From: Isoptericola halotolerans
GTDB lineage: Bacteria > Actinomycetota > Actinomycetes > Actinomycetales > Cellulomonadaceae
NCBI RefSeq assembly: GCF_003003075.1
Contig: NZ_PVTX01000012.1
Span: forward strand, 1 to 64,000
Reading direction: 5' to 3'
DNA: 64,000 nucleotides
Position numbers and translations under genes: made by a program. A model generated the notes under the pieces. The model was not told where the DNA came from. It saw only the letters and a list, made by a program, of their open reading frames with translations, and did not search any database. Position 1 is the first letter of the stretch. Each line of letters starts with the position of its first letter. This document shows, in pieces, positions 1 to 15,613 of this stretch.

Positions 1-2
1 CA

Positions 3-299: not shown

Positions 300-306
300 A
301 CCATCA

Positions 307-334
307 GGTGTTGCGAGGACCCCTAGAAACCGCC
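307..334 (+). mobile_element. Putative right terminal repeat of the IS30-like element
   Basis: Eight bases after the transposase stop the sequence reads ggtgttgcgagg then acccctagaaaccgcc. This is the kind of terminal repeat (ggtgttgc followed by a gaaaccgcc-like block) found just downstream of IS30-family transposase genes. The left copy lies outside the window, so the inverted-repeat match and any target duplication could not be checked. The exact outer boundary is therefore uncertain. Confidence 0.4.
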
Positions 335-476
335 TTGACCACCAGGGCCTTCGTTGTTCTCGGCGCGACATCGAGGTCCGGTCGACCGGTGAGAACCGGC
401 CCCACCGAACCCGGGACGCGCCGCTGGAGAAGAGGGCTTCGTCGTGATCAGGCTGAGGCGAGACGGTCGAAGTCCT

Positions 477-620
477 GACGGTGAGCGAGATGCGATCGTC
501 GGCCGCTTGCTCGACCAGCCGGCGGTGGGTCCGCGGCGGGATCCGCACGCGGAACTCGCCGGAGCAGGTGCGCTCGGACAGCGGCTGGGGGACCGGCTTG
601 GCCGCAAGGTCGTGCTCTCG
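477..620 (-). pseudogene. Remnant of a HicB-like (ribbon-helix-helix) antitoxin gene
   Basis: Reading the minus strand from about 596 to 477 gives PVPQPLSERTCSGEFRVRIP followed by PRTHRRLVEQAADDRISLTV. This matches the C-terminal DNA-binding block of HicB-family antitoxins (P-LSER-YSGKF-VR-P-LHR-LA-EAA---SLN). The usual SLN is SLT here. No plausible start codon or N-terminal HicB fold precedes it, and the frame runs on through unrelated residues toward the IS end. No partner HicA gene is visible. The stretch 335-642 holds this remnant and nothing else I can support. It is best read as a decayed toxin-antitoxin gene broken near an IS insertion. Confidence 0.4.
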
Positions 621-642
621 ACGCACATGCGGGAGGCGTGGC

Positions 643-1356
643 TTAGCTCGCTCTTTGGCGATCTGCCGCGTCCGGCTGCTCGTGGCCGGCGGCCGCGGCC
701 CGGCGAAGCACGTCGTGCTGCGCCGGGTTGTACAACTCCGCCAGCGCTTGGACCAGGGTCTGCTTGGCAGCGGCGTGCAGCCAGGGCCAGGTGGTGGAGC
801 GCCAATTGGCGCCGACGCGTGCGACCTCCCCAGCCAGGCGCTCTCGAGTCGCGTCGCTCGCATCAGTGGGCAGCGCGGCGAACTTCGCGCTGACGGCGGG
901 AGGTTCTGCCACGACCATCCTGCGCAAGTGCGCGACCGCATCGGGGTCGTAGAGCTGCGTGCAGATGTGGATCAGAGCACGATCGGTCTCGGACAGCCGC
1001 GCTGCGACCGCCTCGAACCCGTGGGGCGTGTCCACCGGTGCGTCGGCGTGCAGGATGGCCGCGATGTCGGCTCGCGCTCGCTGGGACCGCTCGATCTCGT
1101 CGTGCAGTGCGGCGTCGAGAGCCCGCAGCGCGTCCTTCAGACCGCTCCCGTCCAGGGCGCCGATCTGCGCGAGGGGAACGCCGAGCTCGGCGAGACGCCG
1201 GAGCTGTAGCAGACGGACCAGGTGGGGGACGCGATACTGCTTGTACCCGTTGTACCTGCGTGAGGGCTCGTCGAGAAGTCCGAGCGCGTGGTAGTGCCGA
1301 ACGGTGTTGACTGTCGTGCCGGCGAGGTCTGCGAGCTCACGTGTGCTCCACGTCAT
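643..1356 (-). CDS. MerR-family transcriptional regulator
   Basis: A 237-residue protein with an N-terminal MerR winged helix (residues 1-70). It begins TWSTRELADLAGTTVNTVRH, followed by the YGLL-like stretch HALGLLDEPSRRYNGYKQYR and the LQLRRLAELGVPLAQI helix. The remaining 165 residues form an alpha-helical effector domain I do not recognise, without clustered cysteines, so metal sensing is unlikely. ATG 1354-1356 is preferred because it abuts the MerR domain. An in-frame ATG at 1390-1392 would add 12 residues and would lie inside the probable promoter. The gene lies downstream of the SDR gene on the same strand but 289 bp away, so it probably has its own promoter and regulates itself through the palindrome at 1394-1415. 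Confidence 0.85.
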   Translation of the reverse strand: MTWSTRELADLAGTTVNTVRHYHALGLLDEPSRRYNGYKQYRVPHLVRLLQLRRLAELGVPLAQIGALDGSGLKDALRALDAALHDEIERSQRARADIAAILHADAPVDTPHGFEAVAARLSETDRALIHICTQLYDPDAVAHLRRMVVAEPPAVSAKFAALPTDASDATRERLAGEVARVGANWRSTTWPWLHAAAKQTLVQALAELYNPAQHDVLRRAAAAGHEQPDAADRQRAS

Positions 1357-1393
1357 GTCGTCAGGCTCGCCGCGCCGGACCGAGCTTCGCATC

Positions 1394-1415
1394 GGTGGAA
1401 CTCACTGGTTCCACC
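1394..1415. promoter_or_regulatory. Palindrome upstream of merR, candidate MerR operator
   Basis: ggtggaac (1394-1401) and gttccacc (1408-1415) are perfect 8-base inverted arms around a 6-base centre, 38 bp upstream of the MerR start. MerR proteins bind dyads between -35 and -10 of their targets, so autoregulation is the natural inference. The left arm overlaps the decamer TTCGCATCGG (1386-1395), which recurs in other intergenic gaps of this region. Confidence 0.5.
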
Positions 1416-1645
1416 CCGGCCACAGCGGGCGACGCGTACCTCAGGCGCCCTGCGTCTCGGTAGAACCTGCCCGATCCGGTACGTATGCCGGTGCACGCAC
1501 GGCACGTGGTGAAACGTGAACGGGTACCCGCCGCTGACAGCCTTCGGTACCTCCCGACCATCTGGACTGAGGGTTCGCGGATCTCGTCCGATCGCGCGGA
1601 CGGCCTCGGTGGGTAATCTCTTCCGGTCGAGGTGCGGCGCGAGGC

Positions 1646-2404
1646 TCAGAGCCCGCGCTCCTCACTGATCGAGTTGGCCCCGTCGACGGTGATGAGCTGG
1701 CCGCTGATGTATGACGCGCCGTCCGCGGCGAGGAATGCGATCACGTGCGCGACCTCCTCGGAGCTACCTGAGCGTCCGACGGGAGTCGCCGCGCCCATGG
1801 CGCGCTCGTGGTCGGACGCCGACGCGGTGTCGATCCAACCCGGCGCGACGGCGTTGACCACGACACCGCTCGAAGCGGTCTCGATCGCGACCGCTCGAGT
1901 CAGCCCGACGATTCCTGCTTTCGCCGCGTGGTAAGCGACATCTCCCGGATAGGCGGCAACCGGTCCCGACACCGACGAGACGTTGACGATCCGGCCATAG
2001 CCCGCGGACTGCATCCCTCCGACCACCGCGCGGATCATCAAGAACGTCGTGGTCAGGTTGCGCTCCAGCGACGCGTGCCAGCGAGCGACTGCGGCACCGG
2101 GGTCCCGATCGGATATCGACGTCATGCCGGCATTGTTGACGAGCACGTCGACGCTGCCGTAGGCGGTCTGCGCACGAGCGACCACGGCGTCGACGCCGCT
2201 CTGCTGCCTGAGGTCAGCGACGACTCCCTCCGCCTCGCCGCCCGAGGCTCGCAGCTCGTCGACGCGATCGAAGATGCGCTCGGTCGTCGAGGTGACGACC
2301 ACACGCATTCCGGCGGCGCTGAGAAGACGGGCCGCAGCGAAGCCGATGCCGTGCTCGCTCCCGGCGCCGGTGACGATGGCAACACGCTGACGGGGCAGTG
2401 CCAT
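1646..2404 (-). CDS. Short-chain dehydrogenase/reductase (FabG-like)
   Basis: A 252-residue classical SDR that should reduce or oxidise a carbonyl/alcohol with NAD(P)(H) in the cytosol; the substrate is unknown. The Rossmann motif TGAGSEHGIG lies at residues 12-21 and NNAG follows. The catalytic Ser-Tyr-Lys set is in NVSSVSG and AYHAAKAG, and the C-terminal GQLITVDGANS closes the fold. The length equals the family norm. The start ATG 2402-2404 has an AAGAGG Shine-Dalgarno 7 bases upstream. The upstream gap 2405-2611 separates it from a same-strand MarR gene and contains a TTGACA (minus strand, near 2541) that could be a -35 box, although no convincing -10 follows. FabG of fatty-acid synthesis is possible, but the setting is not a fab cluster. 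Confidence 0.9.
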   Translation of the reverse strand: MALPRQRVAIVTGAGSEHGIGFAAARLLSAAGMRVVVTSTTERIFDRVDELRASGGEAEGVVADLRQQSGVDAVVARAQTAYGSVDVLVNNAGMTSISDRDPGAAVARWHASLERNLTTTFLMIRAVVGGMQSAGYGRIVNVSSVSGPVAAYPGDVAYHAAKAGIVGLTRAVAIETASSGVVVNAVAPGWIDTASASDHERAMGAATPVGRSGSSEEVAHVIAFLAADGASYISGQLITVDGANSISEERGL

Positions 2405-2611
2405 GGTGGGACCTCTTCTCGTACAGGGGACGCGGGACTCCGACCGGTCGACGGGAGGGCTGTGCTCCCTGCCGACGATCAGCCGATCCCCGATGTGGTC
2501 GGTGATCCGTCAAGCACAGACCCTGTGGTGGGGACCATGTCAAGGGCCGCGAGCACACTGACTCTCCCCGTGAGGCGCCCGCCCGTCACACGGTCTGAGC
2601 GGCTTGGCTGC

Positions 2612-3088
2612 TCATGACCGCTCGTCGAGATGCAGGTGGCGGCGCGTCGCTGCCGCGGCGTCGCGCAGGTGCGCGAGCTGCTCGGGGGTGAGTGCGTCGA
2701 CGAACACGTCCTTGATCGCGCGAAGGTGCGGCAGGGTGCTGGTGTGAAAGGCGCGCGCACCTTCCTCGGTGAGCACGACCCGCGAGCCCCGAGCGTCCTC
2801 CGCGCAGGGTTCGCGACGCACCAGGCCACGCCGCTCCATGCGGCCGAGGTGTCCGGACAGACGGCTGCGTTCCCACTCGATGTGCGCGGCGAGCTCGGAG
2901 GACCGCATCGCCCGGCCGTCCGCCTCGCTGAGCGCGAGGAGCACCCGGTAGTCCCCGCCCGAGAGCCCCGAGTCGTCGTGCAGCCGGGCCTCGATGCGCG
3001 CGCGGACGATCTCGAAGGTCTCGATGTGCAACCGCCAGGCCGCCAGCTCGTCGTGCGTGGGAACCTGCCGGCGCCGGGGATGATCCAT
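2612..3088 (-). CDS. MarR-family transcriptional regulator
   Basis: A 158-residue winged-helix regulator. The DNA-binding core is visible as GLSGGDYRVLLALSEA, MRSSELAAHIEWERSRLSGH and RMERRGLVRREPCAEDARG, with the wing at SRVVLTEEG. Long helices at both ends would form the dimer. The GTA-free ATG 3086-3088 has a strong GAGGAGGA ribosome site a few bases upstream. MarR proteins usually repress their own and neighbouring genes and are released by small phenolics or by oxidation, and the SDR gene downstream on the same strand is an obvious candidate target. The upstream gap contains TTGACACGTGAATC (3105-3118) with a CACGTG core that could be an operator, but this is weak. Confidence 0.9.
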   Translation of the reverse strand: MDHPRRRQVPTHDELAAWRLHIETFEIVRARIEARLHDDSGLSGGDYRVLLALSEADGRAMRSSELAAHIEWERSRLSGHLGRMERRGLVRREPCAEDARGSRVVLTEEGARAFHTSTLPHLRAIKDVFVDALTPEQLAHLRDAAAATRRHLHLDERS

Positions 3089-3171
3089 GGCTCCTCCTCA
3101 GTCGTTGACACGTGAATCGTACGGGCGTCGGCGTGGCGCCGGCCCTCGGAGCACGCCGGTGAGGACCGCTC

Positions 3172-3246
3172 TTCGCATCGGATCCCGCCAGCTCGACGAG
3201 TCGCCAGGTCGCTCGCAGGCTCGTCGTGTACGTGAAGATCACCGAC
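3172..3246. promoter_or_regulatory. Operator-like elements upstream of the DUF4260 gene
   Basis: The decamer TTCGCATCGG (3172-3181) and the palindrome GTGA-aga-TCAC (3232-3242) sit in the divergent gap between the MarR and DUF4260 genes. The 15-mer GTGAAGATCACCGAC at 3232-3246 occurs again on the minus strand at 9936-9950, also between genes. Which regulator binds here is unknown; the adjacent MarR is one candidate. Confidence 0.35.
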
Positions 3247-3258
3247 GCGGAGGCGCGA

Positions 3259-3729
3259 ATGGTCGACGACGATGGCCCCATGAGTGACACCGACCTGAGC
3301 ACCACGACAGACGGTGCGGCGCGTGGCGGTCTGCGGCCGGCGACGATCGAGCGGATCGAGAACGGGCTGGTGGTCGTGCTGGCGGTGGCCGGGACGCTCA
3401 CGATCGAGCCGGGGTTGTGGTGGTTCCCCCTGGCTGTCTTCCTGGCGTTCGACCTGTCGATGGTCGGGTACCTACGGTCGCCGGCCGCCGGCGCTGCCAC
3501 CTATAACGCCGTCCACACCTACGTCTGGCCGCTGGTCCTGGCCGTCGCGGGGCTCGTCGCCGGTACCGGTGCTCCGACGCTGTCCCGGTGGCTGACGCTG
3601 GTCTCGCTTGCCTGGGCTTTCCACGTCGGCCTCGACCGCGCGCTCGGGTACGGCCTGAAGCTGGCTGACGCGTTCACGCACACCCACCTGGGCTGGATCG
3701 GCAAGGACGCCGGGACGAACCCACGGTGA
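3259..3729 (+). CDS. DUF4260-family integral membrane protein
   Basis: A 156-residue protein with about four membrane segments. Landmarks of DUF4260 are visible: a leading RIENG, the FDLSMVGYLRSPAAGAATYN block, the HTYVWPL turn, and the C-terminal HVGLDRALGYGLKLADAFTH followed by THLGWIG. The family has no assigned function. ATG 3259-3261 has a GGAGG Shine-Dalgarno five bases upstream; ATG 3280 (MSDTDLS) is an alternative that would lose the ribosome site. It is transcribed divergently from the MarR gene. The gap to the next regulator gene is 333 bp, so it is probably monocistronic. Confidence 0.85.
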   Translation: MVDDDGPMSDTDLSTTTDGAARGGLRPATIERIENGLVVVLAVAGTLTIEPGLWWFPLAVFLAFDLSMVGYLRSPAAGAATYNAVHTYVWPLVLAVAGLVAGTGAPTLSRWLTLVSLAWAFHVGLDRALGYGLKLADAFTHTHLGWIGKDAGTNPR

Positions 3730-3962
3730 CGCGACGCCGCGACGCGGCACCCGTGGCGCGAACAGCGAGCACGACCGGGGACACCGGCCGTCGACCGCGA
3801 CGTCAGGCACCTCTCAGGAGCAGGGGGAGCGAGGGCCCGGCGCGGCCGACATCGGCGCTCCCTCGCGCGCGATCACCACGCGGACCTCGGGCGGCTCGGC
3901 GGCGAACCCTGGTGCGGTCGGGCCGCCACGTCCTGGTCGCTGCACCCGGCGGGTGAACCCTC
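3730..3962. other. Intergenic stretch without recognisable features
   Basis: Between the DUF4260 stop and the promoter of the first LuxR-type regulator I see no convincing gene, terminator hairpin or repeat. Open frames here are only high-GC shadows. The informative part of the gap begins at 3963. Confidence 0.5.
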
Positions 3963-3995
3963 TGGTCGCCGCATCTGGCATCGGCGAGAATGACC
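3963..3995 (+). promoter_or_regulatory. Promoter and imperfect dyad upstream of LuxR-type regulator 1
   Basis: GAGAAT (3986-3991) is a -10-like box with TGGTCG (3963-3968) 17 bp upstream. The segment aligns without gaps to 11781-11819 in front of the paralogous regulator, sharing GCATCGG-YGA-KAAT-SACCT-KGT. The dyad GGCGA-gaa-TGACC (3983-3995) overlaps the -10 and corresponds to the perfect palindrome in front of the paralogue. Confidence 0.5.
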
Positions 3996-3997
3996 TT

Positions 3998-4066
3998 GTG
4001 GGGGGACCTTGCCCAACCCGGTCTGCGACGACGGCGGACCGGGCGGACGAAGGGCGGAGCTGGTGA
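3998..4066 (+). CDS. Possible 22-residue leader peptide overlapping the regulator start
   Basis: A GTG lies exactly six bases after the GAGAAT -10 box, which is the leaderless arrangement used by many genes in this window. It opens a 22-codon frame (starting MGGPCPTRSA) that ends at TGA 4064-4066, overlapping GTG 4063-4065 of the large regulator in a GTGA junction. This suggests translational coupling. The peptide matches nothing I know, and the frame could be fortuitous. Confidence 0.3.
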   Translation: MGGPCPTRSATTADRADEGRSW

Positions 4067-6828
4067 GGATCCTGGGACGGCGCGCCGAGGCGGCGGCGGT
4101 CGATCGGTTGCTCTCGGACGCGCGGGCGGGCCGCAGCGCGGCCCTGGTGGTGCGTGGCGAGGCCGGCATCGGCAAGACGGCGCTGCTGGAGCACGCTGGT
4201 GACGTGGCCGCTGCTTCGGGATTCAGGGTGGACCGGGCGACCGCCGCCGAGTCGGAGATGCAGTTCGCGTTCGCTGGCCTGCACCAGCTGTGCGCGACGG
4301 CGCTGGAACGTGCGGGCGCCCTGCCCGAGCCCCAGCGCATGGCACTGGGGGTGGCGTTCGGCCAAGCGGCCGGCCCGGCGCCGGACCGGTTCCTGGTGGG
4401 GCTGGCCGTGCTCAACCTGCTGGCAGAGGTCGCCGAGGAGCAGCCCTTGCTGTGCCTGATGGACGACGTGCAGTGGCTGGACGAGGCGTCCGCGCACGTG
4501 CTCGGGTTCGTCGCCCGCCGGGTGGGCGCCGAACGCCTCGCACTGGTGTTCGCGATCCGTGACGACGACCGTGACATGCCGAGCCCGCTGATCGGGCTGC
4601 CGGAGCTGCGGCTGGACGGGCTGGCGGAACCCGAGGCCCGCACGCTGCTGGCCTCGGGTGTCCCGGCGCCGCTCGACGAGAATGTGCGCGAGCGGATCAT
4701 CGCCGAGGCCCGCGGGAACCCCCTGGCCCTGCTGGAGCCACCCGGCAACGGGCACTCGGCGTGGTTCGCCGGCGGGTTCGAGCGACCCGACGCCCTCGAC
4801 GTCCCGCGCCGGATCGAGGAGAGCTTCCGACGGCGTGCGCACGGCCTGCCGGCGCACACCCAGCTCCTGCTCCTGGTCGCCGCAGCGGAGCCGACCGGGC
4901 AGGCGACGGTCTTGTGGCACGCCGCCTCACGGCTCGGGATCGCTCGCGAGGCGGTGACCCCCGCGCAGGACGCCGGGCTCGTGGAGATCGACACCCAGGT
5001 GCGCTTCCGCCACCCGTTGGCGCGCTCCGCGGTCTACCAGGCGGCCAGGGGCGACGACCGCCGTCGGGCACATCAGGCCCTCGCCGAGGCGACCGACCCG
5101 GACGTCGACCCCGACCGCCGCGCCTGGCACCGGGCGCAGGCGGTGCTGGGCACCGACGAGGACGTCGCGCAAGAGCTGGTGCGGTCCGCGGGCCGCGCGC
5201 ACGCCCGGGGCGGGGTGGCTGCTGCCGCGGCCCTGCTGGAGCAGGCGGCCGCCCTGACGCCCGAGCCGGCCGTCCGCGCCGCCCGGGCGCTGGACGCGGC
5301 GCAGGCCAAGCACGAGGCGGGCGCGTCCCAGGCCGCCACCGGGCTGCTCGCCGTCGCCGCGGCGGGCCCGCTCGACGTTCTCGGCCAGGGGCGCCTCGAG
5401 CTGCTCCGCGCCCAGGTCGTGTTCCACACCACGCGCGGCAGCGACGGCGCGGGGATGCTGCTGGACGCTGCCAGGACGGTTGCCCCGCTGGACCCGGAGC
5501 TCGCACGCGACACCTACCTGCAGGCGCTCGAGGCGTCGTTCCACGCCGGGCGCCTCGGGGGTGACTGGACGATGGCTGCGGTCGCGAGCGCCGCCCGGGC
5601 GGCGCCCGTGGCATCGTCGCCCGCCCGGCCGGTCGACCTCCTGCTCGACGGTCTGACCACCATGTTCACCCACGGGTACGAGGCGAGCGTGCCCACGCTA
5701 CGCCGTGCTCTCGACACGTTGCGCGGTGGCGTCGGCGTCGAGGGGCCGGGTGAGGGCGTCGGTCTGGACGAAGGCAGCCGCCGCCGGCTGTGGCTGGCGT
5801 GCCAGGTCGCGGCCACGCTGTGGGACGACGACGCCGTGTACGTGCTCGCCGACCTCGACGCGCGCCTCGCCCGCGAGGCCGGGGCGCTGTCTCGGCTCCC
5901 GGCGGCCCTCAACGCTCTTTCCTCGGTTCTGGTGCTCACCGGCGACCTGGGCCGTGCGGCCGAGCTCGTGGCCGAGGAGAGCGCGATCCGGAGTGCGACC
6001 GGCGCCCCACCGCTGCCCAATGCCCGGCTCATCCTCGCCGCCTGGCAGGGACGCCAGGCGGAGACGACCGCGCTGCACGCAACCATGGTGGCCGAGGCGA
6101 CGGGGAGGGGAGAGGGCGCAACGCTCGGGCTGGCCGACGTCGCCATGGCCGCGCTGCACAACGGGTGGGGTAACTATGGTGAGGCTCTCGCCGCGGCGAG
6201 AGCGCCGGTGGAGCGCGGGGAGCTGACCTTCGCCAGCATCGCGCTGCCCGAGCTCGTGGAGGCGGGCGTCCACGCCGGCGAGCCGGGACGGGCCGATGTG
6301 GCGCTTGAACAGCTCAGGGTGCGGGCCCAGGCCAGCGGCACCGCGTGGGGGTTGGGGCTGTACGCGCGGTCGCGAGCGCTGCTGAGCACCGGGCCGGACG
6401 CCGAGAAACACTACCGGGAGGCGATCGACCAGCTCGGACGCAGCCGGATGGCCACCCACGTGGCCCGCGCCCACCTGGTCTACGGCGAATGGCTGCGCCG
6501 TGAGGGGCGCCGGCAGGACGCGCGCGAGCAGCTCCGCACCGCGCACGAGATGCTGACAGGCATGGGAGTGGACGCTTTCGCCGCCCGCGCTGCCCGCGAG
6601 CTGGGCGCCACCGGCGAGCATCCGCGCAGACGCACGGAGAAGCCCACCGACGACCTCACCGCCCAGGAGCTGCACGTGGCACGGCTGGTGGCCACCGGCG
6701 CCACCTCCCGCGAGGTGGCCGCGCAGCTCTTCCTGAGCCCACGGACCGTCGAGGCCCACCTGCGGGCCATCTTCCGCAAGCTCGCCATCACCTCCCGCCG
6801 CGAGCTGCGCGGCCTGCCCTTGGGGTGA
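4063..6828 (+). CDS. Large LuxR-family ATPase regulator (LAL/MalT-type), copy 1
   Basis: A 921-residue signal-transduction ATPase. Order: an N-terminal P-loop module (ILGRRAE, Walker A GEAGIGKTALL, Walker B LLCLMDDVQWLDEAS), about 600 residues of alpha-helical TPR-like repeats rich in alanine and leucine, and a C-terminal LuxR helix-turn-helix (TAQELHVARLVATGATSRE then LSPRTVEAHLRAIFRKL). Family members bind an inducer and ATP, oligomerise and activate transcription. GTG 4063 is chosen because LGRRAE follows within four residues and an upstream mini-frame overlaps it; TTG 4009 would add 18 residues. It is closely related along its whole length to the regulator at 11838-14612. ABC transporter genes follow directly, which are its likely targets. 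Confidence 0.88.
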   Translation: MRILGRRAEAAAVDRLLSDARAGRSAALVVRGEAGIGKTALLEHAGDVAAASGFRVDRATAAESEMQFAFAGLHQLCATALERAGALPEPQRMALGVAFGQAAGPAPDRFLVGLAVLNLLAEVAEEQPLLCLMDDVQWLDEASAHVLGFVARRVGAERLALVFAIRDDDRDMPSPLIGLPELRLDGLAEPEARTLLASGVPAPLDENVRERIIAEARGNPLALLEPPGNGHSAWFAGGFERPDALDVPRRIEESFRRRAHGLPAHTQLLLLVAAAEPTGQATVLWHAASRLGIAREAVTPAQDAGLVEIDTQVRFRHPLARSAVYQAARGDDRRRAHQALAEATDPDVDPDRRAWHRAQAVLGTDEDVAQELVRSAGRAHARGGVAAAAALLEQAAALTPEPAVRAARALDAAQAKHEAGASQAATGLLAVAAAGPLDVLGQGRLELLRAQVVFHTTRGSDGAGMLLDAARTVAPLDPELARDTYLQALEASFHAGRLGGDWTMAAVASAARAAPVASSPARPVDLLLDGLTTMFTHGYEASVPTLRRALDTLRGGVGVEGPGEGVGLDEGSRRRLWLACQVAATLWDDDAVYVLADLDARLAREAGALSRLPAALNALSSVLVLTGDLGRAAELVAEESAIRSATGAPPLPNARLILAAWQGRQAETTALHATMVAEATGRGEGATLGLADVAMAALHNGWGNYGEALAAARAPVERGELTFASIALPELVEAGVHAGEPGRADVALEQLRVRAQASGTAWGLGLYARSRALLSTGPDAEKHYREAIDQLGRSRMATHVARAHLVYGEWLRREGRRQDAREQLRTAHEMLTGMGVDAFAARAARELGATGEHPRRRTEKPTDDLTAQELHVARLVATGATSREVAAQLFLSPRTVEAHLRAIFRKLAITSRRELRGLPLG

Positions 6829-6912
6829 CCGGTGCGCCGCCGGGGCGCCTTGACCCTGTGGCGGCAACACGGTGTCCCGTGGTGCCATGCACACCAGACA
6901 GTGGGACCGCCC

Positions 6913-7848
6913 GTGATCGTGGCGCAGTCCCTGACCAAGCGCTACGGCGCCACGACAGCGGTCGACGGCGTCGACTTCACCGTCCGTCCCGGCGTCGTCA
7001 CCGGGTTCCTCGGCCCGAACGGCGCCGGCAAGTCGACGACGATGCGGATGATCGTCGGGCTCGACCACCCCTCGGGCGGCCGCGTGACCGTGGACGGCAA
7101 GCCGTACGCGCGCCTCGGTGCCCCGCTGCACCGCGTCGGCGCGTTGCTGGACGCCTCGGCGGTGCACCCGCGCCGCAGCGCCCGCAACCACCTGCTCGCT
7201 GTCGCCGCCACGCACCGGATCGGCGCGCGGCGGGTCGACGAGGTGATCGCGACCGTGGGGCTCGATGCGGTGGCGCGCAGGCACGTGGACGGGTACTCGC
7301 TGGGTATGCGCCAGCGGCTGGGACTCGCTGGGGCGATGCTCGGCGATCCGGACACCCTGATCCTCGACGAGCCGGTCAACGGGCTCGACCCCGACGGTGT
7401 GGTGTGGATGCGCGGGCTGCTGCGCGACCTTGCAGCCCAGGGGCGCACCGTGCTCCTCTCCTCGCACCTGATGACGGAGATGGCTCTGACCGCCGACCAC
7501 GTGATCATCCTCGGGCGGGGTCGAGTGGTCGCCGACGCGCCGATGAGCGACCTGGTCGCCGGTGCCGATGCGGACACCGTCCAGGTGCGCACCCCGCAGG
7601 TCGCCACCCTCACCCCCCTGCTGTGGGCGGAGGGGGCGACCGTCACCCGCACCCCACCCGACCTGCTGTCGGTGGCCGGGCTCGGCGCGCCACGCATCGC
7701 GCAGGTCGCCGCCGGCGCCGGGATCGTGGTCAACGAGCTCACCCCGGTGACCCGTTCCCTCGAGGACGCCTATCTGGAGCTCACCCGCGACGACGTCGAG
7801 TACCGCTCCACCGGCACCCGTCGCATCGCGAGGGAGATGCCCCGATGA
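6913..7848 (+). CDS. ABC transporter ATP-binding protein
   Basis: A 311-residue ATPase of the drug/lantibiotic-exporter type that pairs with a separate permease. Visible motifs: Walker A FLGPNGAGKSTTM, signature SLGMRQRLGLA, Walker B TLILDEPVNGLDPDG and switch histidine LLSSHLMTEM. The C-terminal 90 residues form the accessory domain common in this subfamily. GTG 6913 (MIVAQSLTKRYG) places the first beta strand at the usual position; GTG 6832, three bases after the regulator stop, would add 27 unusual residues but could indicate translational coupling. The gene overlaps the permease by four bases (ATGA), so the two form one unit, probably read through from the LuxR-type regulator. Confidence 0.92.
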   Translation: MIVAQSLTKRYGATTAVDGVDFTVRPGVVTGFLGPNGAGKSTTMRMIVGLDHPSGGRVTVDGKPYARLGAPLHRVGALLDASAVHPRRSARNHLLAVAATHRIGARRVDEVIATVGLDAVARRHVDGYSLGMRQRLGLAGAMLGDPDTLILDEPVNGLDPDGVVWMRGLLRDLAAQGRTVLLSSHLMTEMALTADHVIILGRGRVVADAPMSDLVAGADADTVQVRTPQVATLTPLLWAEGATVTRTPPDLLSVAGLGAPRIAQVAAGAGIVVNELTPVTRSLEDAYLELTRDDVEYRSTGTRRIAREMPR

Positions 7849-8666
7849 GCGCCGTCGTCGTCTCCGAGTGGGTCAAGCTGCGCAGCTTGCGCTCCACGTG
7901 GTGGGCGCTGGGTGCTCTGGCGGCGGTCACCATCGGTGTCGCAGCGCAGGTCTCCTCGTCGGTGAGCTTCTACGGCGTACCGGGCGTCGTCTCCCAGGAC
8001 GCGATGCAGGACCTCGGCGTGTACGTGGTGACGGTGAGCACCGACTTCGGTGCCCTGGTGGTCGCGGTGCTCGGAGTGCTGATGATCGCCGGGGAGTATG
8101 GCACCGGCACCATCCGCAACAGCCTGACGGCTGTGCCGACCCGGCTGCCGGTGCTGGGCGCCAAGGCGCTGGTGCTGGCCTGTGCCACGTTCGCGGTGGC
8201 CACCGCCGCGTTCGCCGTCGCCGTGCCGGTCTCGACCGGGCTGCTGGCGGGCAACGACGTCGACGTCCACCTCGACGACCCGCACTACTGGTTCGCCGTG
8301 CTCGGCGGTGTCACCTACCTGGTGCTCGTGGCCCTGATCGCGTTCGGGATCGGTGCACTGGTGCGCAGCACCACCGGCGGCATCGCGATCTCGCTCGGCC
8401 TCCTGCTCGCCGCACCGGTCGCGCTGAGCCTGCTGCTCGGCGTCGACCCCCCGGCCTGGGCGGAGAACCTCGCAGTCCTGCTGCCCACGGTCGCGGGCAA
8501 GCTGCTCTTCACCTACCCGGCGGCTCAGCGCTGGGTGGACCTGTCCGCACCGTCGGTCGACGGCGCCTGGGTCGGCGAGCCCTGGCACGGCGCTCTCGTC
8601 CTGGTCGGCTGGGTGGCGGCGCTGCTCGCCGTCGCCGGTCTGCTGCTGCGCCGTCGGGACGCATGA
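7845..8666 (+). CDS. ABC-2-type transporter permease
   Basis: A 273-residue integral membrane protein with about six hydrophobic segments. It starts with VVSEWVKLRSLRSTWWALG, the amphipathic opening typical of ABC-2 permeases partnered with lone ATPases, and has the EYGTGTIRNSLTAVPTR loop diagnostic of the subfamily. The last helix ends in RRRDA on the cytoplasmic side. Its ATG overlaps the ATPase stop codon (7845-7848), indicating stoichiometric translation. The transported substrate is unknown; export of a drug, lipid or peptide is the family expectation. The esterase downstream follows after a 62 bp gap with its own ribosome site. Confidence 0.92.
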   Translation: MSAVVVSEWVKLRSLRSTWWALGALAAVTIGVAAQVSSSVSFYGVPGVVSQDAMQDLGVYVVTVSTDFGALVVAVLGVLMIAGEYGTGTIRNSLTAVPTRLPVLGAKALVLACATFAVATAAFAVAVPVSTGLLAGNDVDVHLDDPHYWFAVLGGVTYLVLVALIAFGIGALVRSTTGGIAISLGLLLAAPVALSLLLGVDPPAWAENLAVLLPTVAGKLLFTYPAAQRWVDLSAPSVDGAWVGEPWHGALVLVGWVAALLAVAGLLLRRRDA

Positions 8667-8728
8667 GCCCCCGGGGGCCACGGGCTCGACTCCGGTCCGA
8701 CGGATCGCACCATCGAAGGGAGAACCCC

Positions 8729-9844
8729 ATGACTGCGCCCTCACCCGAGGCGGATCCCGAGCCCGCGCACGAGACGGCGGGCGGATCTGCGCCGGTGGGC
8801 GGGCCTGAGCAGCCTGCCCTCCGCCGGCGCCGGCGCCGGCGGGTGTGGGTGGTCGGCGGCGTCGTCGGGCTCCTGGCGGCGACGGTGACGGTGCTCACCC
8901 TGGTGTTCCAGTTCGGCCTGCCGTGGTGGAGCGGCCCAGGCGACCACGACCACGTGCACGTCGCGGCCGACGGCACCCGCCAGCGCTACCAGGTGCACCT
9001 GCCGCCGCAGCACGACGGCGGCACGGCACTGCCCGTGATGATGGCGATCCACGGGTGCGGGATGACCGGCTACGGGTGGAACTCGATGAAGGGATCCACG
9101 CAGTTCGACGCGCTCGCCGACCGTGCGGGGTTCATCGTCGTCTACCCGACCCAGCGCATGTTCGCCGACCGCATCAACTGCTGGAACTCCGACGACCCGC
9201 GCAACCAGGTCCGCGGCAGCGGGGAGGCGGCGCTGCTGGCCGGGGTGGCCCGCGACGTCGTCGAACGCTACGGCGCCGACCCCGAGCGCGTCCACGTCTC
9301 CGGCGCCTCGTCCGGCGCGGGCACCGCCGTGATCCTCGGTGCGACTTACCCGGACGTGTTCGCCACCGTCACCTCGGTGGCCGGCGGCGAGTACGGACTG
9401 AACCAGGTCGACCCGGACGACCCGGACGCCACTCCGCCGTCGGTCACCGGACGGCAGGCCTGGGCGCAGATGGGCGAGCAGGCCCGCGCCGTGCCGCTGC
9501 TGATCGTGCAGGGCGGCAGCGACGACGTCGTGCCGACCGTCGTCGGTCAGCGGCTGGTGGAGCACTGGCGCACGGTCGTCGACCTGGTCGTCGACGACGC
9601 GCTCGACGGCAGCCCGGAGCTCGTCCCCGACACGATCGTCCACCCGGCCACGGGGGACCGCTACGAGTACGCGCAGACCACCTACCGCGACCCCGACGGG
9701 CAGGTCCTGATCGAGTACGTGTATGCCGACGACCTCGCCCACGCCTGGTCCACGCCCGGCGCCGTCGGCATCTTCACCGACACCGCCGGCCCCGACGCCA
9801 CCGAGATCGCCTGGCAGTTCGCCCAGCTCCACGACGATCGCTGA
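8729..9844 (+). CDS. PHB-depolymerase-like (alpha/beta-hydrolase) esterase, membrane anchored
   Basis: A 371-residue protein. An arginine run (residues 31-37, encoded by a short gccggc repeat) precedes a single hydrophobic segment WVVGGVVGLLAATVTVLTLV, so the catalytic domain should face outside. The hydrolase carries PVMMAIHGCGMTGYGWN (oxyanion region), the nucleophile elbow VSGASSGAGT (serine in GASSG), an acid in QGGSDDVV and a histidine in DLAHAW. This resembles the PHB depolymerase/LpqC esterase family, which cleaves polyesters, feruloyl or acetyl esters. ATG 8729 has an AAGGGAG ribosome site six bases away. It lies in the ABC transporter unit flanked by the two LuxR-type regulators. The substrate is unknown. 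Confidence 0.85.
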   Translation: MTAPSPEADPEPAHETAGGSAPVGGPEQPALRRRRRRRVWVVGGVVGLLAATVTVLTLVFQFGLPWWSGPGDHDHVHVAADGTRQRYQVHLPPQHDGGTALPVMMAIHGCGMTGYGWNSMKGSTQFDALADRAGFIVVYPTQRMFADRINCWNSDDPRNQVRGSGEAALLAGVARDVVERYGADPERVHVSGASSGAGTAVILGATYPDVFATVTSVAGGEYGLNQVDPDDPDATPPSVTGRQAWAQMGEQARAVPLLIVQGGSDDVVPTVVGQRLVEHWRTVVDLVVDDALDGSPELVPDTIVHPATGDRYEYAQTTYRDPDGQVLIEYVYADDLAHAWSTPGAVGIFTDTAGPDATEIAWQFAQLHDDR

Positions 9845-9935
9845 CCGGGCAGCCACCTGATCGTGGGCCCCGACTCCAGCAGCTCGACGGGAGCCGGGCA
9901 CACCAGCGTTCGGAGCGCCTCCTTCATCGGGCGTT

Positions 9936-9959
9936 GTCGGTGATCTTCACCGATGCGAA
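9936..9959. promoter_or_regulatory. Intergenic palindrome with TTCGCATCGG flank
   Basis: TCGGTGA (9937-9943) and TCACCGA (9947-9953) are perfect 7-base arms around tct. On the minus strand the site reads TTCGCATCGGTGAAGATCACC, the same arrangement as at 11793-11813. It lies in the 210 bp gap after the esterase and about 100 bp before the small frame preceding the flavodoxin gene. The rest of the gap 9845-10054 shows nothing else I can name. Confidence 0.45.
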
Positions 9960-10054
9960 GGCCTCACGCGGAACAGCACGCTGGGAACGAGGCCCGGGCT
10001 TCCGGCACCGAGTCCGCCCGACCTGCTGAACCGCGCGAGAAGGGGCTCACACCC

Positions 10055-10156
10055 ATGTGTACCGAGGTCACCGCGACCGACACCGGCAGGCAGCACGACG
10101 GGGTCGCGGCGGAGATGTCGCACCTCGCCGGGCTCGTCGACGATCGGGAGCCGTGA
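10055..10156 (+). CDS. Small ORF overlapping the flavodoxin gene start
   Basis: A 33-codon frame (MCTEVTATDTGRQH at the start) begins at ATG 10055 with gagaagggg nine bases upstream. It ends at TGA 10154-10156, which overlaps GTG 10153-10155 of the next gene (GTGA). The peptide is unrecognised, polar and has no membrane segment. It may be a real coupled leader or may mean the downstream gene starts elsewhere. Confidence 0.35.
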   Translation: MCTEVTATDTGRQHDGVAAEMSHLAGLVDDREP

Positions 10157-10890
10157 TCAGGGTGCGATCGGACGCCACCGCTGGACCGCCACGGTTCGAC
10201 GGTCTGAGTGCCGTGGTCATCAACGCCACCCTGAAGCGCTCGCCGGAGCCCAGCAACACCGACGGGTTGCTGGGTGTCAGCACGCGGATCATGGCGGAGC
10301 ACGGGGTCGAGGTCGAGGTCGTCCGGGCAGTCGACCACGACATCGCGATCGGGTTGTGGCCGGACATGACCGAGCACGGTGAGAACTCCGACGGCTGGCC
10401 GGAGATCTTCGACAAGGTGTTGGCCGCGGACATCCTCGTCCTCGCGGGGCCGATCTGGCTGGGAGACAACAGCTCGGTGATGAAGCGCGTGATCGAGCGG
10501 CTCTACGGCTGCTCCGGTGCGCTGAACGAGGCCGGGCAGTACGTCTACTACGGACGCGTCGGCGGCTGTGTCATCACCGGCAACGAGGACGGCATCAAGC
10601 ACTGCGCCATGAACGTGCTCTACAGCCTGCAGCACCTCGGCTTCACCATCCCCCCGCAGGCCGACGCGGGCTGGATCGGGCCGGTCGGGCCCGGGCCTTC
10701 CTATCTCGACCCCGGGTCGGGTGGCCCCGAGAACGACTTCACCAACCGCAACACCACCTTCATGACCTACAACCTGATGCACGTCGCGGCCCTGCTGCGC
10801 GCCGCGGGTGGCATCCCGGCGTACGGCAACCGACGCAGCGAGTGGGACGCGGGCTGTGCACCAGACCAGGACAACCCCGAGCACCGGTAG
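10153..10890 (+). CDS. Flavodoxin-family / NADPH-dependent FMN reductase-like protein
   Basis: A 245-residue flavodoxin-fold protein. The first beta strand and phosphate loop read VVINATLKRSPEPSNTDGLL, which fits FMN binding. ADILVLAGPIWLGDNSSVMK is the family block contacting the isoalloxazine ring, and GGCVITGNEDGIKHCAMNVL follows. These proteins reduce quinones, nitro compounds or flavins with NAD(P)H in the cytosol. GTG 10153 has GGGAG only two bases upstream, so translation may depend on the overlapping small frame at 10055-10156. The gene converges on the membrane-protein gene at 10944. Its link to the esterase and ABC transporter is positional only. Confidence 0.85.
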   Translation: MIRVRSDATAGPPRFDGLSAVVINATLKRSPEPSNTDGLLGVSTRIMAEHGVEVEVVRAVDHDIAIGLWPDMTEHGENSDGWPEIFDKVLAADILVLAGPIWLGDNSSVMKRVIERLYGCSGALNEAGQYVYYGRVGGCVITGNEDGIKHCAMNVLYSLQHLGFTIPPQADAGWIGPVGPGPSYLDPGSGGPENDFTNRNTTFMTYNLMHVAALLRAAGGIPAYGNRRSEWDAGCAPDQDNPEHR

Positions 10891-10943
10891 GCGAGGACCG
10901 GTATCGGTGCGGTGGCCGGTGCCCCGCAGCAACGATGGTGCCC

Positions 10944-11573
10944 TCATGGCCGGCGCCGCGGACGGGACGCCGAGCCCCGCAACGGCGCCGCGGGCTCCGG
11001 AGCGGGCGCCGACACCTTCGCTGCGTCGAAGACCGACATGATGACCATCGCGGTGCTGGTGAAGCCGATGGCGAGGGCGAGAAGCAGCGAGGGGACGAAG
11101 TCGCTCGGCGACGGGCTCCAACCGCCGAGGACCCACGGCAGGACAGCCAGAGCCACCACCGCGAGCGAGGTGGCGACCTCGTTCGCGGCCAGAGCAGGGG
11201 ACTTTCTCGTCGCGCCCTTCTTCAGGATGCGACGGGTCGTGTCGACGGTGGCGACCACGAGTGCCGCCGCGAACACCGAGAACGTAACGGCCCCCCAGAC
11301 GGGCGCCGCACCGGCCAGGGCGAGAGCGACGAAGAGGGGCAGGCTGTAGGCGATGAGCACCCACCGGGCGCCGGCCCGCATGTACTGGTCCGGCGTGCTG
11401 CCCGCGGCGCCGCGCGATCGGTGCAACGCTGAGTCGAGGTAGAAGAACACGGCCACGATGAAGGTGCCGACGAGGGTCGCGGCGATTCCCGCGAGGCCGA
11501 GCAGGAACTCGTCGGTCACCTCACCGTAGGCGATGGTGAGACGTTCGGCGTCGAGGACCGAAGGAGTGGGCAT
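10944..11573 (-). CDS. Hypothetical membrane protein with four or five helices
   Basis: A 209-residue integral membrane protein I do not recognise. Hydrophobic segments are visible around residues 23-47 (LLGLAGIAATLVGTFIVAVF), 71-110 (two helices with LPLFVALALAGAAPVW between), 130-150 (VATSLAVVALAVLPWVLG) and 160-185. The C-terminal tail is arginine- and proline-rich and cytoplasmic. The start ATG 11571-11573 has an AAGGAG ribosome site eight bases upstream. It is divergent from the second LuxR-type regulator, sharing a 264 bp control region that contains a palindrome. A relation to that regulon is an inference. Confidence 0.75.
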   Translation of the reverse strand: MPTPSVLDAERLTIAYGEVTDEFLLGLAGIAATLVGTFIVAVFFYLDSALHRSRGAAGSTPDQYMRAGARWVLIAYSLPLFVALALAGAAPVWGAVTFSVFAAALVVATVDTTRRILKKGATRKSPALAANEVATSLAVVALAVLPWVLGGWSPSPSDFVPSLLLALAIGFTSTAMVIMSVFDAAKVSAPAPEPAAPLRGSASRPRRRP

Positions 11574-11780
11574 CGGGTCGTCTCCTTTCGTGTCCACAGG
11601 CGTCGGCGGCCCCGCGGTGCGGCCGACCCCCGGCCCGAGGAGCCCGTTCGACGGGCCGAAAACCTCCGGCAGCCTGGTCGGCTGCCGTGTCAGCAGGCTC
11701 GCCCGGGTCGCGGTGTTCTCGCGTCGGTGAAAGCCCCGGCTTTCTCGCCCCTCGCGCCCACCCCGCGCCTGCCGAGTACC

Positions 11781-11813
11781 TGGCGGCCGCGGTTCGCATC
11801 GGTGATAATCACC
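11781..11813 (+). promoter_or_regulatory. Promoter with overlapping perfect palindrome, LuxR-type regulator 2
   Basis: GATAAT (11804-11809) is a good -10 box, with TGGCGG (11781-11786) 17 bp upstream. The 13-base palindrome GGTGAT-a-ATCACC (11801-11813) covers the -10, so a bound dimer would block RNA polymerase. TTCGCATCGG (11793-11802) abuts it. The layout matches 3963-3995 before the paralogous gene base for base over much of its length. Confidence 0.55.
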
Positions 11814-11837
11814 TGGTCCGGCGCGTATCCCGGAAAG

Positions 11838-14612
11838 ATGGTGGACCTGGTGGACCTCTTGGGCCGACGCGCCGAGTGCGAGGCCGTCGAACGTGTGCTG
11901 GCCGAGGTACGTGCCGGGCGCAGCGGGGCGCTGGTGGTGCGCGGTGAGGCGGGCATCGGGAAGACCGCGGTGCTGGAACACCTTCGGCACACCGCGGCCT
12001 CCGCAGGTCTCCAGGTCGAGTCCCTGGTCGGTGCGGAGTCCGAGACACAGTTCGCGTTCGCCGGCCTGCACCAGCTGTGTGCACCGCTGTTGGACCGTGC
12101 GCTGGCACTGCCCGAACCGCAGCAGGTCGCCCTGGGCGTAGCGTTCGGGCTGCACGGGGGTGCGACTCCGGACAAGTTCTTGGTCGGGCTGGCGACCCTC
12201 AACCTGTTGGCCGAGGCCGCCGAGGACAGGCCGCTGGTGACTCTTGTCGACGATGCGCAGTGGCTGGACCAGGCGTCCGCGCAGGTCCTGGCGTTCGTGG
12301 CTCGACGCCTGGCGGCCGAACGCGTCGCGCTGGTCTTCGCGATGCGAGACCACGCCAGGAGTGAGACCCACCCGCTCGCCGGGCTGCCCGAGCTCCGCCT
12401 CGAGGGGCTCGGTGAGGCCGACGCGCAAGACCTGCTGGCCGCATCGGTCCGCACTCCGCTCGACGACGGGGTTCGCGATCGGATCGTCGCGGAGGCGCGC
12501 GGCAACCCGTTGGCACTGCTGGAGCTGCCGCGGAGCGTGCCGCTGGCGCAGCTGGCCGGTGGTTTCGGCCTGCCGGACGCCATGAGCGTTCCCCGCCGCG
12601 TCGAGGAGGGCTTCCGCCAACGCTCGCGGGACCTACCAGCCGAGACGCAGCTGCTGCTGCTGGTCGCTGCGGCCGAACCGACCGGCAACGCAGCGACGTT
12701 GTGGCGCGCGGCCGACGAGCTGGGGATCCCCCCTGAGGCAGCCGGCCCCGCGGAGGAGGTCGGCCTGCTGGAGGTCGGTACCCGGGTGCGGTTCCGGCAC
12801 CCGCTGGTGCGCTCGGCGGTCTACCGAACGGCCACACCGCCGGACCGTCGCCGCGCACACGCCGCGCTTGCCGCCGCCACCGACCCGCGGTCCGACCCGG
12901 ACCGGTGCGCATGGCACCGCGCGCAGGCGGCGATGGGCACCGACGAGGAGGTCGCCGCCGAGCTGGAGCGCACCGCTGATCGGGCCCGTGCCCGCGGGGG
13001 TATGGCGGCCGCGGCGTCGTTCTTGCAGCACGCCTTCGAGCTGACCCCCTCGTCAGAGAGCCGGACGGCACGCGCGCTGAAGGCCGCCGACACCCTGCAC
13101 GAGGCGGGAGCCTCCAAGGAGGCTCGCGAGCTGCTGGCGAGGGTCGACGTCGGACCGCTCGACGCCGTGCAGCGCGCCCACCTCGCCTTGCTGCGCGCGC
13201 GGATCGAGTTCTACCTGACACGGCACGGCGACGCGGCCCGGATGCTGCTGGACGCGGCACGGATGCTGACGCCGCATGATGTCGCGCTGGCCCGAGAGAC
13301 CTATCTGCACGCTCTCGACGCCGCGATCATCACGGGCGGGGGACCTGGCCATGGCGTGCGTGAGATTGCCGACGCTGCCCGCGCTGCACCGCCCGCGCCC
13401 GAGCCGCCGGGGCCGTCCGACCTGTTGCTCGACGGGCTGGTGGCGACGTTCACCCAGGGCTACGCGGCGGCCGTGCCCGCGTTGCGCCGCGCACTGGAAG
13501 CGTTCCGTGCTGACGAGTTCGACGCAGGGGGAGCGCGCGGTGACGACGACCGACGCTGGTTGTCGCACGCCAGCCGCACCGCGAGCGTGCTCTTCGACGA
13601 CGAGAGCCTGCACGCGTTGGCCACGCGCCACGTACGGCTCGCTCGCGATGCCGGTGCGCTCGTCACCCTGCCCGCCGCGCTCCTGTTCCAGTCCGTCGCG
13701 ATGACGCTCAGCGGTGAGCTCGAGCGGGCCGGTGAGCTGGCCGCCGAGCAGACAGCGATCGCCGCCGCGACCGGGGCCGTCCCCCTGCCCCACGCGCAGC
13801 TCGTCCTGGCTGCCTGGCGCGGTCGTCCGGACGAGGTCGTGGGGATCTCCACGACGGTCGCCCGGGACGCCGCCGACCGTGTGCGCGGCACCGAGGTATC
13901 CCTCGCGCAGTACGCGTTGGCGGTGCTGCACAACGGTCTGGGCGACTACACCGCCGCGCAGGATGCTGCGGCGCGGGCGTGCGAGTCCGACGCGCTGAAC
14001 CCCACCAACCTGGCGCTGCCCGAGCTCATCGAGGCGGCGTGCCGTGCCGGCCGGCCGGAACATGCCCTGGAGGCACTGGAAGAGCTCGACGCGAGAGCCC
14101 GAGCAAGTGGCACCCCGTGGGCGCTGGGGCTCGCCGCCCGTTCACGAGGTCTGGTCACCTCGGGTCGCGCCGCCGAGGTGCACTATCTCGAGGGCATCGG
14201 ACAGCTCAGCGGCAGCACGATGGTCGGGTATCTCGCCCGCGCACACCTCGTCTACGGCGAGTGGCTGCGCCGCGAGGGCCGCCGCCGGGACGCGCGCGAA
14301 CAGCTCCGCACGGCCCACGAGCTGCTGTCGGAGATGGGCGCGGAGGCGTTCGCGGAGCGCGCCGCCCGCGAGCTGCGCGCCACCGGCGAACATGCACGCG
14401 AACGCAGCCCCCGGCCCACCGACGCCCTCACGGCGCAAGAGCTGCACGTCGCGCGACTGGTGGCCACGGGCGCCACCTCCCGAGAAGCCGGCGCCCAGCT
14501 GTTCCTCAGCCCTCGCACGATCGAAGCCCACCTGCGGAACATCTTCCGCAAGCTCGGCATCACCTCTCGCCGACAGCTCAAGGACGGACGACTGGGTCTG
14601 CTGCGCGAATAG
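11838..14612 (+). CDS. Large LuxR-family ATPase regulator (LAL/MalT-type), copy 2
   Basis: A 924-residue paralogue of the protein at 4063-6828 with the same order of parts: LLGRRAECEAVERVLAEV, Walker A GEAGIGKTAVLEHL, Walker B LVTLVDDAQWLDQASAQVLA, a long alpha-helical repeat region, and a C-terminal LuxR helix-turn-helix (TAQELHVARLVATGATSRE, LSPRTIEAHLRNIFRKLGIT). Identity by eye is high throughout, including EWLRREGRR-DAREQLRTAHE just before the DNA-binding domain. ATG 11838 is chosen because the ATPase motif LLGRRAE begins at residue 7; a longer frame from 11727 would run through the promoter. The gene ends 164 bp before an SDR gene on the same strand. The inducer is unknown. Confidence 0.9.
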   Translation: MVDLVDLLGRRAECEAVERVLAEVRAGRSGALVVRGEAGIGKTAVLEHLRHTAASAGLQVESLVGAESETQFAFAGLHQLCAPLLDRALALPEPQQVALGVAFGLHGGATPDKFLVGLATLNLLAEAAEDRPLVTLVDDAQWLDQASAQVLAFVARRLAAERVALVFAMRDHARSETHPLAGLPELRLEGLGEADAQDLLAASVRTPLDDGVRDRIVAEARGNPLALLELPRSVPLAQLAGGFGLPDAMSVPRRVEEGFRQRSRDLPAETQLLLLVAAAEPTGNAATLWRAADELGIPPEAAGPAEEVGLLEVGTRVRFRHPLVRSAVYRTATPPDRRRAHAALAAATDPRSDPDRCAWHRAQAAMGTDEEVAAELERTADRARARGGMAAAASFLQHAFELTPSSESRTARALKAADTLHEAGASKEARELLARVDVGPLDAVQRAHLALLRARIEFYLTRHGDAARMLLDAARMLTPHDVALARETYLHALDAAIITGGGPGHGVREIADAARAAPPAPEPPGPSDLLLDGLVATFTQGYAAAVPALRRALEAFRADEFDAGGARGDDDRRWLSHASRTASVLFDDESLHALATRHVRLARDAGALVTLPAALLFQSVAMTLSGELERAGELAAEQTAIAAATGAVPLPHAQLVLAAWRGRPDEVVGISTTVARDAADRVRGTEVSLAQYALAVLHNGLGDYTAAQDAAARACESDALNPTNLALPELIEAACRAGRPEHALEALEELDARARASGTPWALGLAARSRGLVTSGRAAEVHYLEGIGQLSGSTMVGYLARAHLVYGEWLRREGRRRDAREQLRTAHELLSEMGAEAFAERAARELRATGEHARERSPRPTDALTAQELHVARLVATGATSREAGAQLFLSPRTIEAHLRNIFRKLGITSRRQLKDGRLGLLRE

Positions 14613-14764
14613 CGGACGTCGGCGCGGAGAGGGCTGCTGCACGGTGGCTGATATCTCCCTCCTCCTCAGAGTTCATGTCCTCGAGCACGGCGATCGCCGC
14701 GCGGGCTCGTCGGACCTGGCACGCCGCGGCCTGGCCCAGCACGACGCGAGGATCGTGCGCCCGG

Positions 14765-14770
14765 TAGCCT
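14765..14770 (+). promoter_or_regulatory. -10 box for leaderless SDR transcript
   Basis: TAGCCT ends six bases before GTG 14777, so the transcript should begin at the start codon. No Shine-Dalgarno is present. The rest of the gap 14613-14764 shows nothing I can support. Confidence 0.6.
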
Positions 14771-14776
14771 CCTGGC

Positions 14777-15562: not shown

Positions 15563-15613
15563 GGCCCCCCGGGCAGCACACTGGGCACCACCCCGACCCC
15601 GGAGGGAGCGGCC

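Follow-up and report, generated by a model that had tools for sequence, protein, structure and literature searches.

A conserved intergenic element, a probable operator, next to genes for large ATP-binding LuxR-type regulators in Isoptericola halotolerans and other genera

Large ATP-binding LuxR-type regulators (LALs) are numerous in actinobacteria, and to our knowledge few of their operators are known. MalT of E. coli, an ATP-binding LuxR-type activator, has several boxes per promoter and works by an oligomer mechanism, and the NarL heptamer reads TACYYMT. The MalT box is given as GGA[TG]GA in a report on a LAL for which, as stated there, no consensus site was predictable (PMC9628970). Here we describe a recurring intergenic element in a 64,000-nt stretch of Isoptericola halotolerans (the window), which forms the start of a 113 kb contig (NZ_PVTX01000012.1) in a genome of 3.85 Mb with 73% G+C. 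The original prediction had drawn attention to a ten-base string, TTCGCATCGG, associated with a GGTGA-N3-TCACC palindrome, and had proposed an operator shared by a local regulon. Both the shared operator and the local regulon are well supported by near-exact matches in the first 12 kb of the window and by promoters in other families. The 10-mer belongs to a longer operator, approximately TTCGCRTCGGTGA-N3-TYACCTA, in which the core dyad TCGGTGA-N3-TYACCTA carries a conserved TTCGC on one side. The element is quite probably the operator of a LAL subfamily, represented here by the second LAL of the window (LAL2) and probably by the first (LAL1), as judged from the sequence comparisons below. A defined operator allows sequence-based target prediction and provides probes for binding tests; it also offers a handle on what LALs sense, many of the neighbouring genes looking like detoxification enzymes and pumps.

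To build a 35-position matrix, 27 LAL-strand sites located upstream of LALs in other genomes served as the seed, and iteration brought the set to 61 hits; the window took no part in training. The matrix recovered five sites in the window with scores of at least 19.5, all in the first 12 kb, compared to a highest score of 14.5 in simulated sequence (order 3, about 1.2 Mb). The rest of the window did not exceed 9.2, save for a reading of one of the five sites on the opposite strand (16.6, at 3229). LAL2 has two sites: a proximal one of inverted-repeat form at 11793–11815 (+), 23 bp before the ATG at 11838 (score 31.1), and a distal one of tandem form at 11718–11740 (+), which also lies upstream of the divergent membrane-protein gene (score 27.4) and had been missed in the original prediction. 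The two are 75 bp apart, a spacing also seen in other genomes. Further sites occur upstream of the FMN reductase gene at 9937–9959 (−; score 30.2) and at 1386–1408 (+; score 27.0), the latter in tandem form with CTCGC 20 bp upstream of TTCGC and located 30 bp upstream of the divergent MerR gene; other genomes also have sites between MerR and LAL. The fifth site, upstream of the DUF4260 gene at 3229–3251 (−; score 19.5), is the least secure since stray matches in real DNA reach 17–19 (17.0 in L150 and 19.0 in L125, both inside genes, and 18.3 in L114), and it leans on conservation in the syntenic locus L107, where the DUF4260 site has near-complete two-fold symmetry (TTCGCGTACGTAAAGATCACCGACGCGAG). 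The palindrome ahead of the second LAL is likewise kept in L107 (TGCGCATCGGTGATAATCACT), while the FMN-reductase segment and its site are absent there. A weak, degenerate operator-like site precedes LAL1 at 3975–3997 (+; score 8.7), with similar sequence in L107. In the own genome, the pattern with up to two mismatches gave 13 matches versus 7 for the mirrored control; the four matches with no or one mismatch are confined to the first 12 kb of the window, and the site at 3229 has two mismatches, as have eight other matches. No Rfam match at the gathering score was obtained in window positions 1–16000, which were examined for structured RNA, and the element stands either way round with respect to genes.

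Relatives of the LALs were sought in named genomes, and among the best 80 of 524 many are preceded by the same element. The remaining LAL loci (696,981 bases) yielded seven matrix hits of at least 17, all in Mycobacterium/Mycolicibacterium loci, which fall in the same LAL group on the tree. Of 116 matrix sites, a total that includes duplicates from overlapping loci, 103 were intergenic, as opposed to 12.5% intergenic DNA. In 25 genomes, nearly all of them reached via LAL loci, 104 matches with up to one mismatch were found versus 15 for the mirrored pattern. A scan of 394 genomes of the class, selected by the pattern alone and with no mismatch allowed, gave 21 matches in 15 genomes and none for the mirrored pattern. 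Nineteen of these 21 matches were intergenic, and the two in-gene matches (L283, L296) are spread over about 87% of the DNA. Because mirrored counts understate chance for this element, the in-gene matches are the better yardstick, and their rate foretells well under one chance match between genes. Across 396 genomes of the phylum, the strict pattern was found in one genome only (G146). Random scattering inside genes and a lack of conservation at orthologous promoters, either of which would have spoken against the original prediction, were both looked for and not found; near-exact sites are intergenic throughout the class, and related promoters carry the element. We concluded that the element is real, intergenic, next to LAL genes and conserved between genera. 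In one record named Luteimonas salinisoli (L121), a LAL with 65% identity is accompanied by a site scoring 40.6; as Luteimonas is a gammaproteobacterial genus, this would represent either a transfer or a foreign contig.

The same data bear on the possibility that the 10-mer is a chance repetition in a 73% G+C genome, picked after the fact. The string occurs exactly at 1386–1395 (+), 3172–3181 (+), 9950–9959 (−) and 11793–11802 (+) and nowhere else in the window, and its predicted chance rate of about 0.1 per window was reproduced (0.097 expected under an order-3 Markov model, 4 observed). Seven other 10-mers of the window are more over-represented; each of 20 simulated windows contained no or one equally extreme 10-mer, and three of the 20 contained one. 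At one mismatch there was no excess in the window (6 found, 4.85 expected), and loose patterns match widely. The copy at 3172 scores −6 with the matrix and looks like chance, so that it was rejected as an operator site; GTGAAGATCACCGAC at 3232 doubles as a coding string, VKITD. The three one-mismatch copies elsewhere in the own genome (C1:521048, C5:188951 and C9:29928) were also dismissed, all being inside long open frames, with coding composition clear around the first and the last and less clear around C5:188951. The GGTGA-N3-TCACC palindrome is exact at 9939–9951 and 11801–11813, correcting the 9936–9953 reported initially for the former, and the GTGA-N3-TCAC copy reported near 3232 is a one-mismatch version at 3231–3243. 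With up to one mismatch the palindrome matched 11 times in the window versus 2.85 expected, a number reached in 0 of 100 shuffles. The 10-mer count by itself is thus notable and not decisive, and it is the comparison across genomes that settles the element's reality. With the matrix built from other genomes, five sites of the window score above anything in the simulated sequence, and the strict matches of the class are predominantly intergenic, which counters chance for four of the five sites, 3229 being the exception. Chance repetition therefore appears very improbable.

The association of the element with LAL genes was examined on 96 unique sites, for which the duplicates in L109, L257, L260 and L261, four sites of L258 and in-gene sites were excluded, apart from those of the window and L107 before DUF4260. 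Of these, 49 lie before a LAL start at a distance of up to 500 bp, and in 48 cases site and LAL share a strand. In 12 of the 15 class-scan genomes, a LAL with a recognition helix of the ATSRE/EAHL type lies within about 2 kb of the match (L255, L284–L287, L289–L295); it is located across a TetR gene from the match in L290 and L291 and 1.7 kb away in L289. The LAL frame is split in L287 and L294, where the sites are intact. Altogether, 13 of the 15 strict-match genomes hold a LAL of this helix type, including that of L297, where some 76 kb separate the intergenic site from the LAL. When the same 394 genomes were searched with a 59-residue helix-turn-helix (E 1e-18), 28 genomes were obtained; 34 matches were listed with at most 16 candidates scored per genome, and 17 regions were taken, the rest being covered already. 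Thirteen genomes had both site and helix, 2 the site only, 15 the helix only and 364 neither (Fisher P 5e-15). In both site-only genomes the match is inside a gene, and the own genome falls under helix only, as none of its sites fits the strict pattern.

Comparison of recognition helices further connected the element with one type of LAL. Among 102 readable helices, 43 of 56 LALs with Ala/Ser/Thr at one position of the helix had a site within 1.1 kb upstream, compared to none of 46 with Trp/Tyr there (P 2e-17 if rows were independent, which they are not); L132, with no helix column, was not counted by helix, and the tree omits LAL frames below 700 residues (L148, L162 and the short second LAL of L315). 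LALs only 47–50% identical to LAL2 can hold both helix and site (L312–L314), and two LALs of L318 with 48–52% identity carry Trp and lack a site. Rooting the tree at its midpoint places the Ala/Ser/Thr rows in two deep lineages, each of which has sites, and the Trp/Tyr rows in a single lineage that has none; the link between helix and site is therefore not a plain reflection of overall identity. The held-out LALs, identified from their protein sequence alone, comprised 16 with Ala/Ser/Thr and 2 with Trp. A site within 1.1 kb upstream was present for 8 of the 16, with three more elsewhere in the region (L303, L316, L319), and for neither of the two Trp LALs.

A number of observations weigh against assigning the element to these LALs. 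As the matrix drew its seed sites from the LAL strand ahead of LALs, hits and strand there are in part given by construction. Thirteen of the 56 LALs with the helix lack a site in the 1.1 kb upstream of them, and two of the 43 that have one (LAL1 of the window and its L107 orthologue) count only via the DUF4260 site about 0.65–0.85 kb upstream. Five of the 16 held-out regions lack a site of at least 17 (L304, L306, L307, L317 and L315, at 15.8), and the helix of G543, counted among the 28 helix genomes, is of the Trp type. On the tree there is a single change of helix type, giving one independent pair; helix is thus not separable from descent, kinship alone could explain the link, and independent-pair tests could not distinguish the two. 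The mirrored control is too mild, the own genome having 360 matches versus 20 mirrored at three mismatches, and the three-mismatch pattern, which matches 93 of 98 relatives and other genera too, is uninformative. Covariation between half-sites is small (0.609 for matched halves versus 0.590 with halves re-dealt, standard deviation 0.009), and helical phasing of site pairs is marginal (P 0.05) once equal spacings are counted once.

The regulator encoded divergently to the LAL in several genomes is a MerR protein, and the sites might instead be its operators, through which it would control the LAL and its neighbours. In the window this gene occupies 643–1356 (−; Pfam MerR_1, MerR). Homologues of it had a site within 600 bp upstream in 10 of 20 rows, and MerR and LAL face each other across a site in L110, L143, L145, L147, L150 and L305. 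However, the 12 LAL-linked class-scan loci, all of which have a LAL, contained no homologue of the window MerR in the stretches examined (tblastn 1e-15, half length; MerR elsewhere in those genomes was not looked for), and the divergent partner varies, being an ABC ATPase, a kinase, a hydrolase or GPP34 at other loci. The site of L297 sits beside another kind of MerR. We regard control by MerR as unlikely. Among the proteins that the original prediction had considered as binders, the LuxR-type LALs are favoured, with LAL2 the favoured binder of the window sites on sequence grounds, and MerR and MarR less so.

The anatomy of the operator was derived from 138 unique intergenic sites out of 153. 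Thirty-one of these form a proximal class, within 75 bp of a LAL and on its strand, with the consensus TTCGCgTCGGTGAnAATtACcTAgtccgg preceded by cctggcggg. The other 107 share CAGgcTcgc.ccGgcgGcgg.gcc-tTCGCGTCGGTGaaAgtCcC.tA, in which another TCGC-type block is found some 20 bp upstream. The half-sites show two-fold symmetry, the inner heptamers being complementary at 0.609 in register versus 0.19–0.29 when slid. LAL genes often have two copies, a proximal inverted-repeat site beside the gene and a distal site of tandem form commonly 75–86 bp further up; the distal site also precedes the divergent gene, and more copies lie before enzyme and regulator genes of the cluster. Spacings of 19 same-strand pairs, four mixed-orientation pairs being excluded, were 75–77 bp in seven cases, 85–86 bp in four and 100–207 bp in the remainder, and the two preferred spacings (11 of 19) differ by about one helical turn. 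At the proximal place upstream of the LAL, a second conserved string near CATCAGGGACGACTACGGTGGCGGCTACCTA was seen by eye in L119, L124, L131, L135, L146 and L156 and is perhaps a variant of the operator. The position of the proximal sites, which often end 6–45 bp from the LAL start, and their resemblance to −35/−10 boxes (tggcgg-N17-GAnAAT, with the conserved cctggcggg and 17 bp between TGGCGG and GAnAAT) would also suit an element that is mainly a promoter or sigma-factor site, conserved for RNA polymerase. Against this, genes can have the element on either strand, as it is on the opposite strand for the FMN reductase and nearly all MerR rows, and its strict form was found in only two of the 366 class genomes with no helix match, inside genes in both. 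A role mainly as a promoter thus seems improbable, although operator and promoter may overlap.

Assuming that the element is bound by the LALs, a mechanism can be proposed by analogy. A LAL would bind ATP and an inducer and then form oligomers as MalT does, and the oligomer could hold the distal and proximal sites together. By this means the LAL would adjust its own gene and might switch its neighbours, here the FMN reductase, MerR, DUF4260 and the membrane-like protein. The proximal site overlaps the −10-like GAnAAT, so binding there may repress the LAL gene or act on a poised polymerase; distal and target sites would suit activation. The element most likely marks genes that are switched by these LALs; a toxic or lipophilic compound is a plausible trigger, as guessed from the enzyme families.

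Both LALs of the window combine an N-terminal AAA/STAND ATPase domain (Pfam AAA_16, E 2.7e-16 and 3.2e-19) with a C-terminal GerE/LuxR helix-turn-helix (Pfam GerE, E 1.1e-14 and 2.3e-14). LAL1 is encoded at 4063–6828 (+), LAL2 at 11838–14612 (+), with SPRTIEAHLR as its recognition helix. The original prediction had listed both as targets; this holds for the second with its two sites, and the first has only the weak site at its own promoter. The site in the gap between the esterase and the supposed flavodoxin, an NADPH-dependent FMN reductase at 10162–10890 (+; Pfam FMN_red), goes with the reductase and not with the esterase. FMN-reductase homologues had a site within 600 bp upstream in 6 of 11 rows (at least 68% identity, two rows being one record), all on the opposite strand as in the window, compared to none of eight rows for esterase homologues. 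The reductase orthologues of L114 and L115, same-genus genomes with no LAL1 match at 1e-100, have no upstream site, the match of L114 mentioned above being located elsewhere. A 33-residue frame ahead of the reductase (10055–10156, +) is similar, on visual inspection, to the beginning of the GNAT acetyltransferase-like gene located before this reductase in L122, L248 and L295, and appears to be what is left of a lost gene. The membrane-like protein (10944–11573, −), assigned by eye as it has no Pfam match, is encoded divergently from LAL2, and 3 of 8 rows of its homologues had a site within 600 bp upstream. Locus L107 lacks 9854–11778, comprising the reductase and the membrane-like protein, and the esterase and second LAL adjoin there. 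The inverted pair at 9937 and 11793 was considered as the ends of a mobile insert and rejected, no clean ends being seen; the 9937 site lies about 82 bp inside the stretch absent from L107. The first frame of the contig (42–299, +), judged by eye, resembles the end of a transposase, the cluster sitting at the contig edge.

The DUF4260 gene (3280–3729, +; Pfam PF14079, run with the start at 3259) likely starts at ATG 3280, which is kept in L107, whereas ATG 3259 is not. It belongs to the predicted targets, as the site at 3229–3251 serves it in place of the 10-mer at 3172 initially named. That site is also 141 bp upstream of the MarR gene (2612–3088, −; Pfam MarR_2), and L107 carries about 5 kb extra between MarR and DUF4260. 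No matrix site was found ahead of the short-chain dehydrogenase gene (1646–2404, −; Pfam adh_short_C2) in the scan of the window. DUF4260 is preceded by a site in L250 and L251 too, where the 15 kb examined contain no LAL, and both genomes hold such a LAL elsewhere (L125, L138), which points to action at a distance. Among the 96 unique sites, with sites between divergent genes counted for both, other families with sites before their starts were ABC ATPases (20), MerR (10) and NAD(P)-binding proteins (10). Further neighbours by Pfam include FMN-dependent oxidoreductase, zinc alcohol dehydrogenase, alpha/beta hydrolases, an MFS pump, GNAT, polyketide-cyclase-like proteins, enoyl-CoA hydratase, AraC, protein kinase, GPP34, DUF5996 and DUF4260; a SnoaL-like neighbour was below the Pfam cut-off, and TetR genes turn their 3' ends to the site. 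The best reading for the window is a small local regulon of the FMN reductase, MerR, DUF4260 and the second LAL, with the LAL as the putative binder. More tentatively, and with somewhat less than even confidence, we propose a general operator code, in which a small residue (Ala/Ser/Thr) in place of Trp/Tyr in the helix would be tied to a single operator in many families of actinobacteria, and oligomers of the LAL would bridge helically phased distal and proximal copies and thereby govern small, movable gene clusters (reductases, hydrolases, efflux pumps, minor regulators), some targets being far from any LAL.

Literature searches, in which subscription journals were thinly covered, did not find this operator described, and a literal search with 12–13-base strings of the element returned only papers on unrelated subjects, judged by title. 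Among described systems, MalT differs in its box, GGA[TG]GA, which by inspection is absent from the element consensus, compared to a long dyad with a TTCGC flank here. The nearest solved sequences to the helix-turn-helix of LAL2 are ChrA and GerE, and the half-site TTACCTA resembles the NarL heptamer; in contrast to NarL/GerE-type operators, however, the window element has a spacer of 3 and an asymmetric TTCGC extension, and LAL2 has no receiver domain by Pfam. According to a study on SARP-LAL regulators, PimR resembles the present system in having several repeats per promoter and a LAL-type ATPase part, but its operators are direct CGGCAAG heptamers bound by the SARP domain (PMC5930380). SCO6993 is a LAL that, like those of the window, has an AAA/ATP-binding part and a C-terminal LuxR helix-turn-helix, and it protects two sites with short palindromes in its own promoter; the two protected sequences quoted in that report are unlike the window element (PMC9628970).

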